In this document: piece after piece, positions 3,348-26,547 of the stretch
Numbering within the stretch: the first letter of the stretch is position 1
Layout of the letters: each line of letters opens with the position of its first letter
Virus record (IMG/VR): IMGVR_UViG_3300030061_000537
Coordinates: 1 to 33,804 of that record
DNA: 33,804 nt
Direction: 5' to 3' (one strand)
From: a virus
Program-made: the position numbers and the translations under genes
The notes under the pieces: generated by a model
The model's database searches: none
Told to the model about the DNA's origin: nothing
Seen by the model: the letters and a program-made list of their open reading frames with translations, nothing else

Positions 3348-4910
3348 ATGTCAAAACAAGTATTAACAGCTTCTCTAGTAGCCCCAGCCTTTTTAGGTTT
3401 AAATACCCAAGAGTCTAGTGTAGCTAATGACCCTAGCTTTGCTTTAGAAGCTAATAATTGTATTATAGACGAGTTTGGTAGATTAGGTGCTAGAAAGGGT
3501 TGGACATATCGTACTAGTTCAGGGGGAACAAGTACTAACCTAAAAGGTATGCACCCCTTTTTAGATGTAGCAGGAACTAATACTTTAGTGTCTTGGTCTA
3601 GTACTAAATTTTATACAGGACTAACTACATTAACAGAACGCACCCCTACCACTACTGATACTATTAGTGCTGGTAATTGGAGTAGTGCAACATTAAACGA
3701 TATAGCATATTTTTTCCAAAGAGGTTATAAACCTTTATATTATACAAATGAAACTACAGCTAATGAGTTTAAATCTGTAGACCAACATTCAGGAGCTGCT
3801 GGAACAGCCCCTACAGCTAATATAGTTATGTCAGCATTTGGTCGTTTATGGGCGGCTGATACTGCAACTAATAAAACTACAGTTTACTTTACTGATTTAT
3901 TACATGGATATAAATGGAGTGGTGGTAGTTCTGGCTCTTTAAATATATCGGGAGTTTTACCAAAAGGTCAAGATGTAATTACTGGTTTAGGTGAAATGAA
4001 TGGTAATTTAATTATATTTTGTAAAAATCATATTATTATATATACAGATGGAGATAACTTTGCATCAAGTATTAGCACAACTTCTTTAACTTTAGTTGAA
4101 GTTATTTCAGGGGTAGGTTGTATTGCTAGAGATAGTATACAAAATACAGGAAATGATATTGTATTTTTATCGGCTACTGGGTTACGCTCATTAGGTAGAA
4201 CAATACAAGAAAAATCACAACCATTAAATGATTTGTCTAAAAATGTAAGAGATACATTTATGGATATTGTAAACAGAGAAACTAATTTAGATTTAGTTAA
4301 ATCTTGTTATTTTCCTGAAGAAGCTTTTTATTTAATTAGTTTACCAGAAGCAGCACAAGTATTTGTATTTGATACTAGAGGTACTTTAGAGGATGCTTCA
4401 TTAAGAGTAACTACTTGGAACGACTTAAACCATACTGACTATGTTTATGACCCAACTAATAAAACTATGTATATGACTCAAGCAAATGGTTTAGCTGAAT
4501 ATACTGGTTATAACGATAATGGTAGTGCATACACTATGTCATACTTTACTAATCACTTTGACTTTAATGCTCCAAATATACTTAAGTTGTTAAAACGAGC
4601 AGCAGTTACAGCTATTGGAAGTTCAGCACAATCATTTACTTTAAAGTGTGGTTTTGATTATACAACTAGTTATTTTAGTTTTCCATTTACCCTAAGTCAA
4701 TCAGCGGTATCGGAATACGGAATAGCTGAGTACGGTGCTAATGCAACAACAGTAGCAGAATATCAATCAGGTATTTCTTTGGAAAGACTTGATTCTTCTG
4801 TATCAGGTTCAGGCTCAATAGTACAACTTGGTATTGAAACAACAATAGATGGAGCGTTACTAAGCGTTCAAAAATTAGACATTTACACTAAACAGGGTAG
4901 GATTATATAA
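3348..4910 (+). CDS. Tail nozzle protein B (T7 gp12-like)
   Basis: A 520-residue tail tubular protein B. The N-terminus has FLGLNTQESSVANDPSFALE and NNCIIDEFGRLGARKGW, typical of marine podovirus nozzle proteins, followed by beta-propeller-like repeats throughout. T7 gp12 is longer (about 790), but podoviruses of this group carry shorter versions. It assembles under the gp11-like ring and forms the exit channel. The next gene starts on its last base (TAATGAG overlap). Confidence 0.87.
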   Translation: MSKQVLTASLVAPAFLGLNTQESSVANDPSFALEANNCIIDEFGRLGARKGWTYRTSSGGTSTNLKGMHPFLDVAGTNTLVSWSSTKFYTGLTTLTERTPTTTDTISAGNWSSATLNDIAYFFQRGYKPLYYTNETTANEFKSVDQHSGAAGTAPTANIVMSAFGRLWAADTATNKTTVYFTDLLHGYKWSGGSSGSLNISGVLPKGQDVITGLGEMNGNLIIFCKNHIIIYTDGDNFASSISTTSLTLVEVISGVGCIARDSIQNTGNDIVFLSATGLRSLGRTIQEKSQPLNDLSKNVRDTFMDIVNRETNLDLVKSCYFPEEAFYLISLPEAAQVFVFDTRGTLEDASLRVTTWNDLNHTDYVYDPTNKTMYMTQANGLAEYTGYNDNGSAYTMSYFTNHFDFNAPNILKLLKRAAVTAIGSSAQSFTLKCGFDYTTSYFSFPFTLSQSAVSEYGIAEYGANATTVAEYQSGISLERLDSSVSGSGSIVQLGIETTIDGALLSVQKLDIYTKQGRII

Positions 4911-5617
4911 TGAGTAATTATTCAAAAACAACAGACTTTGCAGCAAAAGATGCTTTATCTACAGGTAATGCAAATAAGATTGTAAAAGGTACAGAGATAG
5001 ATGATGAATTTGATGCCATACAAACAGCAGTAAATAGTAAAGCTGATACTAATAATGCTGCTCTAACAGGTACACCAACAGCTCCAACAGCTAGTGCTGC
5101 TACTAATTCAACACAATTATCTACCACAGCGTATGTAACATCTGCTATTACTACTGCAGTTGCTGCAGCTAAAGCAGCTTTATTTCCAGTAGGAACTATA
5201 TATACACAAGCAGCAGTATCTACCAACCCCGCAACTTTACTAGGGTTTGGAACTTGGGCAGCATTTGGTACAGGGCGTGTGTTAGTAGGTTTAGATGGTA
5301 GTGATACAGCATTTGATACATTAGAAGAAACAGGTGGTAGTGCAGCAGTTACCCCAGCAGGTACTAACGCAGGGACAGCACTTACAGAAGCTCAGTTACC
5401 ATCGCATACACATACAACAACATTAACACAAACAAATGGTACAAGTTCACTTAATGAGGCAAGAGTTGCATCAGGTGGTTCTACTACATTAGGTACACAA
5501 GCTTATGATACAGATGCAACAGGAAGTGGTGCGACACATACTCACACTTTTACTGGTGCTTCTCAAACTAACTTACAACCTTACATAGTTGTATATATGT
5601 GGAAAAGAACTGCTTAA
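4910..5617 (+). CDS. Short tail fibre / tail collar domain protein
   Basis: A 235-residue protein. The N-terminus (NYSKTTDFAAKDALSTGNAN, KIVKGTEIDDEFDAI) matches the virion-attachment segment seen in many marine podovirus appendage proteins. A TGTPTAPTA linker follows, then a collar-type domain: FPVGTIYTQ, LLGFGTWAAFGTGRVLVG, LPSHTHTTT, ATHTHTFTG and NLQPYIVVYMWKRT. The HTH pairs are the kind of HxH motif that binds iron in T4-type fibre tips. It is likely a second, short fibre or plug. The next gene starts in its stop codon. Confidence 0.83.
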   Translation: MSNYSKTTDFAAKDALSTGNANKIVKGTEIDDEFDAIQTAVNSKADTNNAALTGTPTAPTASAATNSTQLSTTAYVTSAITTAVAAAKAALFPVGTIYTQAAVSTNPATLLGFGTWAAFGTGRVLVGLDGSDTAFDTLEETGGSAAVTPAGTNAGTALTEAQLPSHTHTTTLTQTNGTSSLNEARVASGGSTTLGTQAYDTDATGSGATHTHTFTGASQTNLQPYIVVYMWKRTA

Positions 5618-5925: not shown

Positions 5926-6743
5926 TGGGTAGTAGTATAGGAAAAATATTAGGTGGAGAAAAGGCTCAACCAGCTAAAGCTGCACCCGGAGCTAGTTTTG
6001 AACCATTTACATATACTGGTTTAGCGGGTACAGCAACAGGAAAAAAAGACGGTGATTTAGGATTTAAGTTTGAACAAGAACTAACCCCTGAATTACAAGC
6101 GTTGTACGAGCAAGGGTTACTAGCAACTAGCCCCTTACTTTCTCAATACTTAGAACAGGCACAAGCCCCTGTCCCTACATTTGATTATACAGGTGACGAT
6201 TTAAGAGCAAGGGAGCAACAAATACTAGCAGAGCAAACTGCTCTATTAGAACCTGAACTAGAAAGACAAAGACAACAATTAAGAAGTGATTTGTTTGGGT
6301 CAGGTCGTTTAGGTTTACAATTAGCAGGTGAAGCAGCAGGTGCTGGGGCAGATACAGGAATGGTTAGCCCTGATGCTTACGGATTAGCTTTAGCACAATC
6401 TAGGGCGTTAGCTGGGTTAGCCCCTGAAGCTAGACAGTTAGCTAGTGAAGAAGCACTACAAGATTTTGCTAGAAGACAAACAGCTTATGAACTAAACCGA
6501 GCTGCTGAACAGCAAAGATTAGCTAACTTACTAGGTGGTCTAGGGGCTGGTATGGGTACATTTAAAGATATACTAGGTATAGAACAAGGTTTAATCGGTC
6601 AAGCTTCTGGATTAGAACAAGCTCGTGCTTCTGCAACTACTGGAGCATTCCAAGCGGGTACACCAGCTACAGCTCGTAGACCGGGATTGTTTGAACAAGC
6701 ATTAGTATCAGCTGCCCCAACAATAGCTGGTGGATTTTTTTAA
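5925..6743 (+). CDS. Candidate internal virion/ejection protein, Ala/Gln-rich
   Basis: A 272-residue protein with a Gly/Ala-rich N-terminus, a central helical region rich in Glu, Gln and Arg (LRAREQQILAEQTALLEPEL, ERQRQQLRSDLF) and a Gly/Ala-rich C-terminal third ending in TIAGGFF. The composition resembles the T7 gp14 internal core protein, which enters the envelope during infection. Location between tail genes and two further candidate ejection proteins supports this. No enzymatic motif is visible. Confidence 0.6.
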   Translation: MGSSIGKILGGEKAQPAKAAPGASFEPFTYTGLAGTATGKKDGDLGFKFEQELTPELQALYEQGLLATSPLLSQYLEQAQAPVPTFDYTGDDLRAREQQILAEQTALLEPELERQRQQLRSDLFGSGRLGLQLAGEAAGAGADTGMVSPDAYGLALAQSRALAGLAPEARQLASEEALQDFARRQTAYELNRAAEQQRLANLLGGLGAGMGTFKDILGIEQGLIGQASGLEQARASATTGAFQAGTPATARRPGLFEQALVSAAPTIAGGFF

Positions 6744-6756
6744 TAGGGAGTAAATT

Positions 6757-7496: not shown

Positions 7497-10307
7497 TTGG
7501 CTAGTATAGAAGAATTATTGAATGAGGTAGTAGTAGCACCTAAAGTAAAAACAACTACAACAACAGAAGAATCTAATATTGAATCATTATTAAATGAAGT
7601 TGTACCCCAAGCTACCCCTGAGCAAATAGAAAAACAAACTAAAGCAAAAGAAAGAGAAGAAGCCTTAGACGAAATAAGTGCTTTTAAAAAGTTTAATTAT
7701 GGTATAGATAGTACTGATAATATTCTTACTAATGCTTCTTTATGGTTAGAAAGTAAATTTCCTTTAGGTGTTTTTGGTAGAAACGGTACATTTTATACAT
7801 CCCCTGATGAACTATATGGGGAGGGTTTTACTGATTTATCGGAAGATGAAAGGCGTGAAGTTTTAGTCAAACACAGACAAAAAGAATTAAAACAAGAGTA
7901 TCCAATATTATCTGCATTAAGTAAAGACGGTAGTGTTGGTTACGAAGAAACTTTAGGTATGATAACAAAAATATTAGTTGACCCTACTATACTTTTTCCC
8001 GTTGGACAAACATTTAAAGCAGCAACTGCTACTGGCACAGCTATAGGTGCATTGTATTCTACTACAGAAGACTTAGCTACAGTTTCAGGTGAAATAGATA
8101 AAGAAAAACTAGCTTATATGTCTGCATTTGGTGGGATAGCTTCCGGTCTTATAAGTAAAGGATTACAAGTTTTTAAAAAAAGAAAAGTAAATAAAAAAGA
8201 AATGGAAGAAGCTAATATTAAAATGGAAGAAATAAATAATACTATATCAGTTGGTATTTCTAAAAATGTATCAGCTAAAGATATGCCTAAGTATGTGCAA
8301 GATGAATTAGGAATGACTGCAGAGGATTTAATAAAAACATTAAATAATACTAGCATTCCTTTAAAAACACCAATGTTACCACAAGCAAGGGTAGAGCAAG
8401 AATTACTTAAACTTCACAAAAAAAATTCACAAGGTCAAGCAGGTTTATTTACAGATAAAATAATAGGAAACATATCTACAAGAGTAAAGAATATATCTCC
8501 ATTAATATTTGGTAAACTAAGAAAACACGAGTTTAATGTATCAGTAAAAACTCATAGTGAATTAGAAATAATTAAAAACTTTACTAGAGCAATTAATAGA
8601 GAGAATAAGAAAACCCGTAACTTAATAAATATGCATTTACATAATGGTAATTATAATGCAGTTGCAAATATACTAAGGAAAAGAAATCCAGATATTGCAA
8701 CAGAAATATCTAAGGTAAGAAATTTGTTAGCTAAAAAACAAAAAGATTTAGAGAAAGCTGGTTATGAAATAAATGTAATTGAAAACTATTTTCCGTCAAA
8801 AGTAAAAGATTTACAAGGTTTAAGAAAATCTTTAAATGTAGAACAAAGAGGTGCATTAAACAAAGCTTTATATGAAAGGGTAAATCAATTAAAATTAAAT
8901 TCAATAAAAGAATTACCGGATGAAGAAGTAAATAAAATTATCAATCAAACTATTCGTGGGTTTACCCCTAAAGTAGATGGTGCAGGGTTAGGTTTTACTA
9001 AGTCAAGAAAAATAGACCAGATAACAGAAGACATGGGTAAATATTATGAAGAACCTTCTGTAGCTTTAACAAACTATATTAGACAATCAGTTAATGATAT
9101 TGAGCGTAGAACATTTTTAGGTAGGCTTAGTAAAAAAACTACCCCTCTTTCTGAAAATATTGATGAATCAGTAGGTAATTATGTAAGGAAAGAAATAGAA
9201 AGAGGTAATCTTGATGTAAATGATGTTGACGAATTATCAGATTTATTAACTGCTAGGTTTGGTATGGGTGAAAAATCCCCTAATAGACTTTTAAAATTTT
9301 TTAGAGACTTTGGTTATGGTGTTACTTTAGGTAATCCTCTATCTGCTATGGTTCAGTTTGGTGATATTGGTGTATCTGCTTGGATGCAAGGTAATAGAAA
9401 TACTATAGCTTCTTTGCTTGGAAATAGAAAAGTAACTATGAAAGAGTTAGGGCTAGATGATATTATGTCACACGAACTAAACAATGCAATAGACACTTCA
9501 AGAATATTAGGAGAAGTATTAAAGTTTGGGGGTTTTAGAGCAGCAGATAGGTATGGTAAAAATGTTTTATTAACAGGGGCTTACAAAAAAGCTACAAAAG
9601 CAGTACAGTCTGAAGCAGGTACTAAAGCCCTATCAAAAAAATATAAAGCAGTTTTTGGGGATGATGAATTTAATATGTTAGTAAACGAATTAAGAAAAGG
9701 TGAAGTAACTGATAGAGTTAAATTTTATCTATGGAATGAGTTATCAGATGCTCAACCTATATCAATGACAGAAATGCCTGAAGTATATTTAAATTCTCCT
9801 AATGGTCGTATACTCTATGCTCTTAAATCTTTTACAATAAAACAATTAGACTTGCTTCGTAGGCGTGTAATACAAGAATATAAGGCAGGTAATAAATTAA
9901 AAGCAGGTAGAAACTTAGCAGGTTATGTTTTATTAGTAGGTGGTTTAAACGGTACAGTACAAGAGACTAAAGACTGGGTATTAGGTAGGGGTTTTAATAT
10001 TGAAGATATACCAGACAATTCTATGAATCATTTGTATTCTTTAATGGCAGCTAGTCAATATGTACAAGATAGATATTTAAAACAAGGGGATATATATGGT
10101 GCTGGTTTAAATCTTGTAGCACCCCCATTACAAGTTTTTTCAGATATCGGTAGAGATATATCTAATTTAATAAATAAAGGAGATACTTTACCAGAAAAGA
10201 CTTTAAAAAACTTACCTATCTTTGGTAAACTATGGTATAACTTTTTTGGTGGTGGATTAGAAAATGCATTAGAAAGGCAAGAAGCTAAGAGGAGAGAAGA
10301 TGATTAA
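7497..10307 (+). CDS. Large internal virion/DNA ejection protein
   Basis: A 936-residue protein, the largest single gene product here, in the position of T7 gp15/gp16. It starts at TTG, six bases after a good AAGGAG; no ATG fits as well. Residues about 165-210 include hydrophobic segments (KAATATGTAIGALYS, MSAFGGIASGLISKG). The C-terminal third contains GVTLGNPLSAMVQFGDIGVS, LYALKSFTIKQLDLLRRRVI and AGYVLLVGGLNGTVQE, hydrophobic stretches like the C-terminal domain of large phage polyvalent and ejection proteins. No lysozyme-like transglycosylase motif is evident, unlike T7 gp16. It probably forms part of the trans-envelope channel (inference). Confidence 0.65.
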   Translation: MASIEELLNEVVVAPKVKTTTTTEESNIESLLNEVVPQATPEQIEKQTKAKEREEALDEISAFKKFNYGIDSTDNILTNASLWLESKFPLGVFGRNGTFYTSPDELYGEGFTDLSEDERREVLVKHRQKELKQEYPILSALSKDGSVGYEETLGMITKILVDPTILFPVGQTFKAATATGTAIGALYSTTEDLATVSGEIDKEKLAYMSAFGGIASGLISKGLQVFKKRKVNKKEMEEANIKMEEINNTISVGISKNVSAKDMPKYVQDELGMTAEDLIKTLNNTSIPLKTPMLPQARVEQELLKLHKKNSQGQAGLFTDKIIGNISTRVKNISPLIFGKLRKHEFNVSVKTHSELEIIKNFTRAINRENKKTRNLINMHLHNGNYNAVANILRKRNPDIATEISKVRNLLAKKQKDLEKAGYEINVIENYFPSKVKDLQGLRKSLNVEQRGALNKALYERVNQLKLNSIKELPDEEVNKIINQTIRGFTPKVDGAGLGFTKSRKIDQITEDMGKYYEEPSVALTNYIRQSVNDIERRTFLGRLSKKTTPLSENIDESVGNYVRKEIERGNLDVNDVDELSDLLTARFGMGEKSPNRLLKFFRDFGYGVTLGNPLSAMVQFGDIGVSAWMQGNRNTIASLLGNRKVTMKELGLDDIMSHELNNAIDTSRILGEVLKFGGFRAADRYGKNVLLTGAYKKATKAVQSEAGTKALSKKYKAVFGDDEFNMLVNELRKGEVTDRVKFYLWNELSDAQPISMTEMPEVYLNSPNGRILYALKSFTIKQLDLLRRRVIQEYKAGNKLKAGRNLAGYVLLVGGLNGTVQETKDWVLGRGFNIEDIPDNSMNHLYSLMAASQYVQDRYLKQGDIYGAGLNLVAPPLQVFSDIGRDISNLINKGDTLPEKTLKNLPIFGKLWYNFFGGGLENALERQEAKRREDD

Positions 10308-10854
10308 AAACTTTTTATTCTTAGTCTTAATAACTTTAGTAGGTGTATTCACAACTACAAGTGTACACCCAGCAGATAATAGAACAACAGTAAATAATAA
10401 GAACACCCCTCCCCCTAGCTCAATCTCACCGAGTATACAAAGTTATTCTCAAATGATTTGTTCGTTTCCCGTAGTAGGTGCAGTACAAACTTCAGTAGTA
10501 GGTATATCAACTGGTACAACATTTACTGATTGGAATTGTGAGAGGAGAGCCTTAAGTAACAGTTTATCAAAGGCAGGATTAAAGGTTGCCAGTATTAGTA
10601 TTTTATGTGCTGGTAGTAAAGAAGTGTGGTCAGCTATGTTACACAGCGGTACACCCTGTAGTATATGGGATGGAAAGAAAGCATTGATAGGTAAAGAAGC
10701 ACTAGATTATTATAAAAAAATGAACTATATAGATAACTATGGAAAAATTATTAAATATCCTGACTACTTGGGTACTGACTATAATGTTAGTAATTACAGC
10801 CAGTCCATTAGCCAAAGCTCAGGAACAAGAACAAACAGCAAACATCCTAAATAA
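10300..10854 (+). CDS. Exported protein with four cysteines, conserved in marine phages
   Basis: A 184-residue protein. Residues 1-25 form a signal peptide (MIKNFLFLVLITLVGVFTTT then SVHPADN). The mature part starts with a Thr/Asn/Pro-rich linker (NKNTPPPSSISPS), then a compact region with Cys at about 53, 79, 103 and 119 (MICSFPVV, DWNCERRAL, ILCAGS, GTPCSIW) that could form two disulfides in the periplasm. Similar secreted proteins with NCERRxLSxxL are familiar from marine phage genomes, with unknown role. Its 3' end overlaps the next gene by 116 bases in another frame. Confidence 0.65.
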   Translation: MIKNFLFLVLITLVGVFTTTSVHPADNRTTVNNKNTPPPSSISPSIQSYSQMICSFPVVGAVQTSVVGISTGTTFTDWNCERRALSNSLSKAGLKVASISILCAGSKEVWSAMLHSGTPCSIWDGKKALIGKEALDYYKKMNYIDNYGKIIKYPDYLGTDYNVSNYSQSISQSSGTRTNSKHPK

Positions 10855-12019
10855 CGGTTCATTTAGTAATGAAACTGAGGGGTGGGAACTAAGTGGTAAT
10901 GTTACTTATGATGGTAATAATTACGGACAGTTAAATAAATCAGTTAGATTTAATGGTATAGATGGTGGATTAATTAGTCAAAAGATTATACTAAGTACTA
11001 AAGACGAAAACAAAATAATTAATTCTATTGATGGTACTTTTAAATCTATCGGGTGTAATAATAAAGGTTCTGATTGGTGTACTAAAACAGGTACATTAGA
11101 TAATTTAGATACAATAGATTGGTTAGTAAGATTTGAAGATGGTAGTCAATCGGAAGTGTTAATCTTTAATTTTACTTCTGACTACAATCATGGAACAATC
11201 ACTCAAAGTTTTGCTAGAGAATTAACTAAAGAATTTAATACAAGCAATACAAATGTAGAAGTTATTGTTTCAGGTTTTGATACTGGTGGTTGGGCTGGTC
11301 AGTACGGTGCTATCATAGATGATTTAAATATAGGTTTAAGTTTATCTGAGCCTGTTATAATAGAAGAACAACCTACAATTATAGAAGAACAACTTACAGT
11401 TATAGACGATATACATACTGGCATTATAGAAATACCAGTTGTTAATACTGATATGGGGTTAATAGATAATACTCTACCTAAAATAGATATGGTAGAAATA
11501 GATGTAGGTTTACCTGTAGAGTCAGATGTTGAAGTGGTTGAGGATATACCAGAAGAAATTAAACCTATTGATATGGAAGAAGACTTAGGCCTTGAACCAG
11601 AATCAGAAGAAGAAGAAATACAAGAAATAGAGATAAAGATAGATAATGAGGTAAAACAGGAAAATACCCAAAAAAATGAGAAAGTGGTAAAAAAACAAGC
11701 TCCTGAGTCGCAAAATAAGGGCGATAAAAAAGTTTCTGCTACCCTAGATACCCCCAAAATTGAGTCAGATATTGTCGTACAAGAACTTGATTTACCAACC
11801 ATAGTATCTTTTAATAAACAGTATTTTGAAAACAAATATAAAGATGTAATTAACCTAACAACAACGGAGATAGATTTTTATGACGGACAAGACGGATTCA
11901 ACAATCAAGATTACACCCAAGCTAATACTGATTTTTTTAATATCAGTAGCAGCTCCAATGGGGAGTGGGGTATGGCTAATCAGCGACATGTCGTCAAGGT
12001 TGAGCAGTTTAGAAGATAG
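10739..12019 (+). CDS. Exported protein: beta-sandwich domain plus long acidic linker
   Basis: A 426-residue protein. The start at 10739 lies inside the previous gene and gives a textbook signal peptide (MEKLLNILTTWVLTIMLVIT then ASPLAKA, cleavage near residue 28). Residues ~35-205 look like a carbohydrate-binding-type jelly roll: ILNNGSFSNETEGWEL near the start and GAIIDDLNIGLSL at the end. Residues ~210-330 are a Glu/Asp/Ile/Val-rich linker (EEQPTIIEEQLTVIDD, EEDLGLEPESEEEE) that turns Lys-rich (VVKKQAPESQNKGDKK). The C-terminus is Asn/Gln-rich. A periplasmic or surface role is likely; spanin-like, receptor-masking or glycan-binding roles are guesses. Confidence 0.62.
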   Translation: MEKLLNILTTWVLTIMLVITASPLAKAQEQEQTANILNNGSFSNETEGWELSGNVTYDGNNYGQLNKSVRFNGIDGGLISQKIILSTKDENKIINSIDGTFKSIGCNNKGSDWCTKTGTLDNLDTIDWLVRFEDGSQSEVLIFNFTSDYNHGTITQSFARELTKEFNTSNTNVEVIVSGFDTGGWAGQYGAIIDDLNIGLSLSEPVIIEEQPTIIEEQLTVIDDIHTGIIEIPVVNTDMGLIDNTLPKIDMVEIDVGLPVESDVEVVEDIPEEIKPIDMEEDLGLEPESEEEEIQEIEIKIDNEVKQENTQKNEKVVKKQAPESQNKGDKKVSATLDTPKIESDIVVQELDLPTIVSFNKQYFENKYKDVINLTTTEIDFYDGQDGFNNQDYTQANTDFFNISSSSNGEWGMANQRHVVKVEQFRR

Positions 12020-12215
12020 TGTTGCTGGTATTCCAAACTCAGATAATTCAGAAATACTTGAAAGAATAACTGCTGTAGAAATAAATGTAACCAATAATAA
12101 AAATCTTATTGAGAAGATTGATGCAGATGTAGATAAACTTATTGAGCATGTAGATAAATCATTTAAAACAATAACAGACAATATAAACTCTAACCCACTA
12201 TCACTAGGAAATTAA
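11880..12215 (+). CDS. Membrane-anchored coiled-coil protein
   Basis: A 111-residue protein. A short cytoplasmic N-terminus is followed by one transmembrane helix (about 14-35, LILIFLISVAAPMGSGVWLI) and a coiled coil (SSRLSSLEDSV, ILERITAVEINVTNNKNLIE, DADVDKLIEHVDKSFKTI). This N-in, C-out layout with a periplasmic coiled coil is that of inner-membrane spanins, though it also fits other tail-adjacent membrane proteins. It begins within the previous gene, overlapping it by 140 bases in a third frame. GGAGA lies about ten bases before the ATG. Confidence 0.6.
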   Translation: MTDKTDSTIKITPKLILIFLISVAAPMGSGVWLISDMSSRLSSLEDSVAGIPNSDNSEILERITAVEINVTNNKNLIEKIDADVDKLIEHVDKSFKTITDNINSNPLSLGN

Positions 12216-12216
12216 T

Positions 12217-12417
12217 ATGAATAGTAAAGATTTTAAACCTCACATGATGTATGACAAAAAGACTGGTAAAGGTATAAATGCCACAAGTTATGCTAAACAT
12301 ATGGAGTTAAAAAAGAAAGGATATGTCCACAAAAAACCAAAAGGAGTCAATGTGAATACAAGAAAAAAGAGAACTTATATTAAAAAGAAAAAGAAAACAA
12401 CTAAAAAAGGATATTAA
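12217..12417 (+). CDS. Small Lys-rich protein
   Basis: A 66-residue protein, MNSKDFKPHMMYDKKTGKGI then NATSYAKHMELKKKGYVHKK, ending in a run of Lys and Arg (KKRTYIKKKKKTTKKGY). Short proteins with FKPHMMYDxKTGKG are seen in other marine podoviruses and have no known role. The charge suggests nucleic acid binding or a packaged virion component. It is the last gene of the rightward block; leftward transcription ends against it. Confidence 0.65.
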   Translation: MNSKDFKPHMMYDKKTGKGINATSYAKHMELKKKGYVHKKPKGVNVNTRKKRTYIKKKKKTTKKGY

Positions 12418-25972: not shown

Positions 25973-26176
25973 ATGGCTGTAGTACAAGGGTATAAATTTA
26001 CTGTCCCTAAAGATAAAATGGAAGAAATGACTAATGTCTTTGAAGGAAACAGAATAAAAAAAGTTATTCTTGGTTTACAAAAAGGGGAGTCAGATGCTAA
26101 ATTAAAAGAATATTTAGGAGATGAATTTCCAAAAGGCACATTAGATATGATAAAAAGAGAATTAGGTTTAAAATGA
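25973..26176 (+). CDS. 67-residue small protein
   Basis: MAVVQGYKFTVPKDKMEEMT, NVFEGNRIKKVILGLQKGES and a C-terminal helical part (YLGDEFPKGTLDMIKRELGL). The last 35 residues could form a small helical DNA-binding unit, but no clear helix-turn-helix is visible. AGGAG precedes the ATG and its stop overlaps the holin start (ATGA). It is common in this genomic position by context only. Confidence 0.6.
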   Translation: MAVVQGYKFTVPKDKMEEMTNVFEGNRIKKVILGLQKGESDAKLKEYLGDEFPKGTLDMIKRELGLK

Positions 26177-26547
26177 TTAACTTAATAGCTCCAATCGTAA
26201 GTTTAGGTAAGACATGGCTAGAGGGTAAGCAAGAGCTTAGTAAAGCAAAACAAGAGGCACGACTAGTTACCACAAAGGCTCAAGCCGAAATATCACGCAA
26301 AGTTGCCGCTGGTGAACTAGAGTGGAATCAGACTATGGCTCAAGCTAGTAATAACTCTTGGAAGGATGAATGGTTAACAATCCTTGTTAGCATTCCCTTA
26401 ATTCTAGCTTTTACAGGTCACGAAGACATTGTATCTCGTGGCTTTGCTGCCCTAGAGTCCATGCCTGACTTTTACAAAACTGCAGTAGGTGTTGTATTCG
26501 CTGCATCCTTCGGTATTCAACAAATGACTAAGATGTTTAAAAAATAA
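26173..26547 (+). CDS. Holin, 3TM gene-transfer-agent type
   Basis: A 124-residue protein resembling the 'holin of 3TMs, for gene-transfer release' family. After a charged helical region (KQELSKAKQEARLVTTKAQA) comes SWKDEWLTILVSIPLILAFT, then GFAALESMPDFYKTAVGVVF and AASFGIQQMTKMFKK. The SWKDE-x-LT...SIPLILAF and FYKxAxGVVxAASFG patterns are typical. It would permeabilise the inner membrane to release the lysozyme encoded two genes on. Confidence 0.8.
   Translation: MINLIAPIVSLGKTWLEGKQELSKAKQEARLVTTKAQAEISRKVAAGELEWNQTMAQASNNSWKDEWLTILVSIPLILAFTGHEDIVSRGFAALESMPDFYKTAVGVVFAASFGIQQMTKMFKK

Follow-up and report, generated by a model that had tools for sequence, protein, structure and literature searches.

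Three overlapping genes encode exported and membrane proteins in a marine phage genome

The IMG/VR virus record IMGVR_UViG_3300030061_000537, which we analysed over its entire length of 33,804 nucleotides (nt) and refer to here as the window, contains a cassette of three overlapping genes, A, B and C, whose predicted products are two exported proteins and one membrane protein. A preliminary description of this DNA, made from the letters alone, had placed the three genes in three different frames with overlaps of 116 and 140 nt, and the coordinates of the open reading frames (ORFs) match that layout exactly. The same description had assigned signal peptides to A and B and a single N-terminal membrane helix to C; N-terminal signals were found on all three proteins, with the signal peptide of B encoded entirely within A and the membrane helix of C entirely within B, as had been claimed. 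The features of the cassette are as follows.

10300-10854, + strand: gene A, 184 amino acids (aa), predicted to be exported; PHROG 20531
10739-12019, + strand: gene B, 426 aa, predicted to be exported; predicted carbohydrate-binding module (CBM)/galactose-binding-type beta-sandwich plus linker
11880-12215, + strand: gene C, 111 aa; N-terminal membrane helix, predicted periplasmic coiled coil, NPL motif
10739-10854, + strand: out-of-frame A/B overlap, 116 nt; contains the B signal peptide; conserved in the clade
11880-12019, + strand: out-of-frame B/C overlap, 140 nt; contains the C membrane helix; conserved in the clade

The cassette is conserved in otherwise unrelated marine phages

Searching with A by tblastn matched the pelagiphages HTVC115P, Mosig, HTVC023P, Baldr, HTVC033P and HTVC202P, together with the podovirus ctXG6705 and Votkovvirus S28C10 (Autographiviridae), and a search with a pelagiphage query added the roseophages CRP-207 and CRP-810. 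In every one of the named phages matched by tblastn, a B-like gene and after it a C-like gene lie downstream of A, with small ORFs interposed in some. These counterparts were reached through A, as tblastn with B or C of the window gave no direct homologue in the named phages and B of the window alone found no relative among viral contigs.

An A profile matched at least 600 stretches in IMG/VR, of which the best 80 were used. Both B and C were present by profile in 73 of the 93 loci having more than 3 kb beyond A, and those of the remaining, profile-negative loci that were inspected mostly have diverged versions of B and C. We also looked for C by an independent and stricter rule, namely an ORF downstream of A that begins with a membrane segment near its start and has NPL among its last 9 residues. 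Such an ORF was found in 83 of the 85 loci readable far enough but in only 1 of 140 control stretches, and in the other two loci the NPL lies slightly further from the C terminus (ENPLSNM). The presence of a membrane-plus-NPL ORF after A at 85/85 loci, compared to 1/140 controls, indicates that A and C are tightly linked in marine phages. Taken together, these sequence comparisons indicate that A-B-C is a conserved module in otherwise unrelated pelagiphages, roseophages and uncultured marine phages, and that many ocean viruses, mainly ones infecting SAR11-type bacteria, carry the trio. A genome collection yielded 20 cassette loci, all on contigs from metagenome-assembled genomes or single cells, and we rejected a host chromosomal origin because no isolate chromosome is among the 20 matches listed.

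Additional ORFs lie between A and B in seven loci (L064, L067, L070, L098, L118, L127 and L130). One type encodes a membrane and coiled-coil protein ('PMKTVASLI..VFAYTELTARL') and another a protein of ~75 aa ('GEIKEHRIQ..CLKGKR'), and both types also occur in HTVC103P, where A and B gave no match.

The long overlaps are genuine and largely restricted to one clade

Among the window's close relatives (IMG/VR loci L009-L061, the close clade), the A/B overlap measures 98-131 nt and is kept in all 35 with readable frames, and the B/C overlap measures 134-149 nt and is kept in all 33 with readable frames; the exception in this clade is contig L023, where a frame is broken. Synonymous codon differences, measured among residue-identical pairs, were fewer in the overlaps than in the remainder of each gene: 0.26 versus 0.47 for A, 0.21 (A/B overlap) and 0.064 (B/C overlap, almost nil) versus 0.30-0.37 for B, and 0.31 versus 0.39 for C. 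Synonymous change is thus lowered in both overlaps, which is the outcome of a check across relatives that the preliminary description had proposed. When the tail of the upstream gene was re-encoded synonymously, the downstream frame was still open in ~7% of trials per gene, and in ~5% with a start codon; the same trial on the window alone left it open in 8.5% and 14.6%. The retention of the overlaps in the clade, the reduced synonymous differences and the rarity of an open frame after re-encoding together indicate that the overlaps exceed chance and that both frames are in use. No RNA structure was detected at the start of B or of C (z 0.7 and 0.3).

Beyond the close clade the three genes are retained, but the B/C overlap is mostly shorter than 35 nt or missing, and A and B overlap in some loci but are separated by up to hundreds of nt in others. 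Because distant cassettes keep the genes without it, the long overlap is mainly a trait of the window's clade and is not essential to the cassette. The suggestion that such overlaps are a meaningful spanin-like trait is therefore not supported.

Predicted architecture of the A, B and C proteins

Across the families, a hydrophobic N-terminal segment is present in almost every member of A, B and C, and lipoboxes are rare. The A protein consists of a signal peptide, a low-complexity stretch rich in Asn, Thr, Ser and Pro (very long in L156 and L158) and a core of ~80 residues with four conserved cysteines (C54, C80, C103 and C120). An AlphaFold2 model places a beta hairpin at residues 55-76, with moderate confidence only, and helices at 78-140, where the predicted local distance difference test (pLDDT) is in the 80s. 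Neither sequence nor fold searches of the PDB returned a match for A, and structural matches in BFVD were marine phage proteins and a protein of Achromobacter phage phiAxp-2. The PHROG 20531 profile, a family whose function is unannotated, matches A of the window with an E value of 6.8e-8 and also covers the A proteins tested from pelagiphages, roseophages and phiAxp-2; it is a single-gene family, however, and the linkage of A with B and C is no part of its definition. A homologue of A and a Gly-rich exported protein form a pair that moves as a unit among the unrelated Achromobacter phages phiAxp-2 (L170, 44598-45710), AXY1 and ART.

The B protein has a signal peptide, a beta-sandwich at ~30-203 predicted with pLDDT mostly 80-95, a linker at ~217-388 and a short C-terminal helix. 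Comparison of the sandwich with the PDB by Foldseek returned CBM16, CBM61, CBM22 and Fbs sugar-binding domains, the best matches being CBM61 2xom and CBM16 2zew (E 1e-6 to 1e-5, probability 1.0). The model thus bears out the glycan-binding-like domain attributed to the middle protein, in that the N-terminal domain is predicted to have the jelly-roll fold of CBMs, with glycan binding as a putative activity. Sequence searches were less informative: Pfam CBM_4_9 matched just 3 of 63 B members, and a PDB search with B returned only trivial matches or weak CBM fragments. The linker, previously described as long and running from acidic to basic, does shift in this way and is predicted to be disordered. 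The N-terminal domains of B align between its two main groups (E 6e-5, probability 65). A universal C-terminal motif in B was considered and dropped, as hhalign gave a probability of 0.4 between clades and homology there is not demonstrable.

The C protein has the features of an i-spanin, with an inferred N-in topology, a single membrane helix and a probable periplasmic coiled coil predicted from sequence; an NPL motif near its C-terminal end is almost invariant. Two roseophage genes annotated as lysozyme, CRP-207 gp73 (L143, 3292-3873) and CRP-810 gp51 (L144, 7165-7587), share its membrane helix, coiled coil and NPL end, and are probably misannotated gene C. In ctXG6705 (L007), A (5001-5507) and C (6341-6751) are unannotated and B is labelled 'transport protein tonB'.

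Some phages carry a lipoprotein of ~52 aa near the cassette (L071 9122, L095 5789, L104 501, L107 4756 and L109 3272), with conserved cysteines in the pattern ..ALSxCxxGxKC..WFYxxKPxxLDKxNC. A hidden Rz1-like ORF was rejected as a general feature, because a separate lipobox ORF occurs in only 6 of 88 cassettes.

Lysis genes are frequent neighbours of the cassette

A three-transmembrane (3TM) holin family related to GTA_holin_3TM (formerly DUF3154) is present in all 11 cassette genomes. Its distance from the cassette is ~600 nt or less in Mosig, HTVC033P, ctXG6705 and Votkovvirus. HMO-2011 has a member of this holin family next to the phage lysozyme. Several gene orders bring the cassette together with lysis genes: A-B-C, an ORF of no assigned function, holin and lysozyme in ctXG6705; holin-A-B-C in Mosig; an M15 peptidase after A-B-C in HTVC023P; and holin-A-B-C immediately before the large terminase gene in Votkovvirus S28C10. 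In T7, Rz/Rz1 occupy the region just before the large terminase gene.

We surveyed 38 non-redundant loci with 3 kb on each side of the cassette, counting M15 peptidases, lysozymes and amidases as endolysins. A holin lay within 3 kb in 17/38, an endolysin in 10/38 and either in 22/38, compared to a rough chance expectation of ~22% if a single gene fell randomly within a genome of 40 kb; with an expectation this rough and loci that are not independent, the enrichment looks real but moderate.

Rz (PF03245) was below the cut-off in all 11 cassette genomes, although Rz-type spanins are diverse and a single Pfam model can miss them; the Rz-like phrog_739 was weakly matched by one of 51 C members (E 9e-4).

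The holin-like gene of the window lies outside the cassette.

26173-26547, + strand: 3TM holin-like gene; homologues annotated DUF3154, related to GTA_holin_3TM PF11351 members

The remaining genes of the window, for tail fibre, tail, ribonucleotide reductase, replication, terminase, portal and capsid, indicate that the virus is apparently a tailed, podovirus-like marine phage. A starts 8 nt within the 3′ end of an upstream 936-aa gene, which by its position probably encodes a virion protein, and a strongly basic 66-aa ORF (12217-12417) follows immediately 3′ of C, where relatives have other small membrane-protein genes. A 520-aa protein encoded at 3348-4910 carries the PHROG label 'amidase' (phrog_5107). 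We rejected it as an endolysin because most of the homologues found by tblastn are annotated as structural protein, and the label probably stems from a mis-annotated record. The window yielded no convincing endolysin.

A possible spanin-like role and its rivals

The explanation that we favour for these observations, at a little short of even chances, is that A-B-C forms a periplasm-spanning, lysis-linked envelope complex with a spanin-like job. It draws on the export and membrane signals, the i-spanin topology of C, the linkage of A and C, the CBM-type fold and disordered linker of B, the holin in all 11 genomes, the lysis neighbours at 22/38 loci, the Rz scores below cut-off and the gene orders in ctXG6705, Mosig, HTVC023P and Votkovvirus S28C10. 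In such a complex the three proteins would bind one another, with C anchored in the inner membrane and extending its coiled coil into the periplasm. The soluble protein B would act as a bridge, crossing the periplasm with its long disordered linker and attaching through its CBM-like domain to a glycan of the envelope (peptidoglycan or lipopolysaccharide), and A would be a disulfide-stabilised exported partner, possibly located at the outer membrane via its hairpin. After the action of holin and endolysin, the complex would serve to disrupt or to weld the outer envelope. More doubtful is the wider proposal that A-B-C is an unrecognised, widespread three-component system by which marine Gram-negative phages breach the outer envelope, in which the place of lipoprotein-based spanins is taken by a periplasmic bridge that binds glycans, an exported partner stabilised by disulfides and an inner-membrane coiled coil with an NPL tail.

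Several observations weigh against a spanin-like role. The holin lies at least 6 kb from the cassette in 7 of the 11 genomes, including the window (14 kb), and, as noted above, the lack of an Rz match is tempered by the diversity of these proteins. No credible lipobox ORF that could encode a lipoprotein o-spanin was found in the window, separate lipobox ORFs are as rare elsewhere as stated above, and A and B mostly have no lipobox themselves. In the roseophages CRP-207 and CRP-810 the middle gene encodes a helical exported protein of another kind, which has neither CBM domain nor linker. The module also appears to be optional, as the other pelagiphages HTVC010P, HTVC011P and HTVC103P gave no match to A or B. 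Finally, the Achromobacter phage homologues of A adjoin the Gly-rich exported protein, away from lysis genes.

This last arrangement also favours the strongest rival, in which the exported proteins coat or modify the host surface or envelope, for instance by masking receptors or glycans (superinfection exclusion) or by altering adhesion. Such remodelling, which we consider rather unlikely, would accommodate the glycan-binding-type fold of B and the Asn/Thr/Ser-rich N-terminal repeats of A, which resemble surface or fibre segments, and there is a parallel in the exported curli module of other pelagiphages, with proposed roles in superinfection defence and aggregation (PMC9599517). The cassette, however, comes without an outer-membrane export pore; it is repeatedly close to holin and endolysin genes; and an inner-membrane coiled-coil protein linked to A at every readable marine locus is hard to explain for a coat. 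The preliminary description had left the choice between an undescribed envelope-disruption and a surface-modification module. That the module is an undescribed one of exported and membrane proteins stands, and between the two functions the holin and endolysin neighbours favour disruption whereas the Achromobacter homologues of A favour modification.

Two further possibilities are less likely than either a spanin-like or a remodelling role. T4 times its lysis with the holin T and antiholin RI pair, and by analogy C could act in the membrane as a sensor or in the manner of a holin, with A and B as regulators in the periplasm; a disulfide-type exported A and a single-helix C with a periplasmic domain would resemble RI and T, and holin genes are in the neighbourhood. 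All 11 genomes already have a separate 3TM holin, however, and the size, CBM-type domain and linker of B are unexpected for a regulator, which makes timing control improbable. Least probable of all is that the trio is packaged as virion or DNA-ejection proteins. A directly follows the 936-aa gene in the window and follows tail genes in some relatives, but A and B have Sec-type signal peptides and C a membrane helix, neither A nor B matches a PHROG tail or head family, and the cassette, which unrelated podo- and myophages have in common, does not stay beside structural genes.

Comparison with known phage systems

Two-component spanins (λ Rz/Rz1; T7 gp18.5/18.7) resemble the cassette in that C is an N-in, single-helix, coiled-coil phage protein, in that the genes overlap out of frame in the window's clade, in that the cassette is often near holin or endolysin genes, and in that one Autographivirus has A-B-C just upstream of the large terminase gene. 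They differ in that A-B-C has two secreted proteins, one of them large and with a CBM-type domain, and neither a lipoprotein o-spanin nor an Rz Pfam match, and in that the overlap is partial and is not conserved beyond one clade. Since a lipoprotein o-spanin was looked for in the cassette and the window and not found, A-B-C appears not to be a member of the Rz/Rz1 family, and the kinship that had been suggested from the overlaps is not borne out. Unimolecular spanins, with a lipobox and a C-terminal transmembrane segment in one protein, were likewise absent among the cassette proteins.

The curli/type VIII secretion module of pelagiphages (CsgG, CsgF, CsgA/B and FecR; PMC9599517, PMC9004378) is, like A-B-C, an exported multi-gene module common to podo- and myo-pelagiphages with a function absent from the hosts. 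A coiled coil at the inner membrane and a domain of CBM type set A-B-C apart, no similarity was noticed between the two, and we rejected membership because CsgG (PF03783) was found in 0/11 cassette genomes. HTVC008M (L165, 7562-11963) encodes CsgF, CsgG, curlin repeats and a FecR-like protein, a fuller curli-like cluster than PMC9004378 states and one already given in PMC9599517. No description of A-B-C was found in the literature searched, the coverage of which is incomplete; PMC9599517 contains no mention of a signal peptide, holin or cassette, and the paper describing HTVC033P mentions cell lysis in general terms only.

Implications for phages of marine bacteria

The A-B-C cassette is real, conserved and, within the literature searched, undescribed. 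Its small overlapping genes are easily missed or mislabelled, as the lysozyme label on C in two roseophages and the missing annotation of A and C in ctXG6705 illustrate, and the NPL motif together with PHROG 20531 provides a simple signature for finding further cassettes. Few cells on Earth are as abundant as those of SAR11 and related marine bacteria. How their phages pass the outer membrane is not settled, and A-B-C supplies concrete candidate genes; the trio may be an unrecognised part of the way in which these viruses breach or remodel the host envelope.

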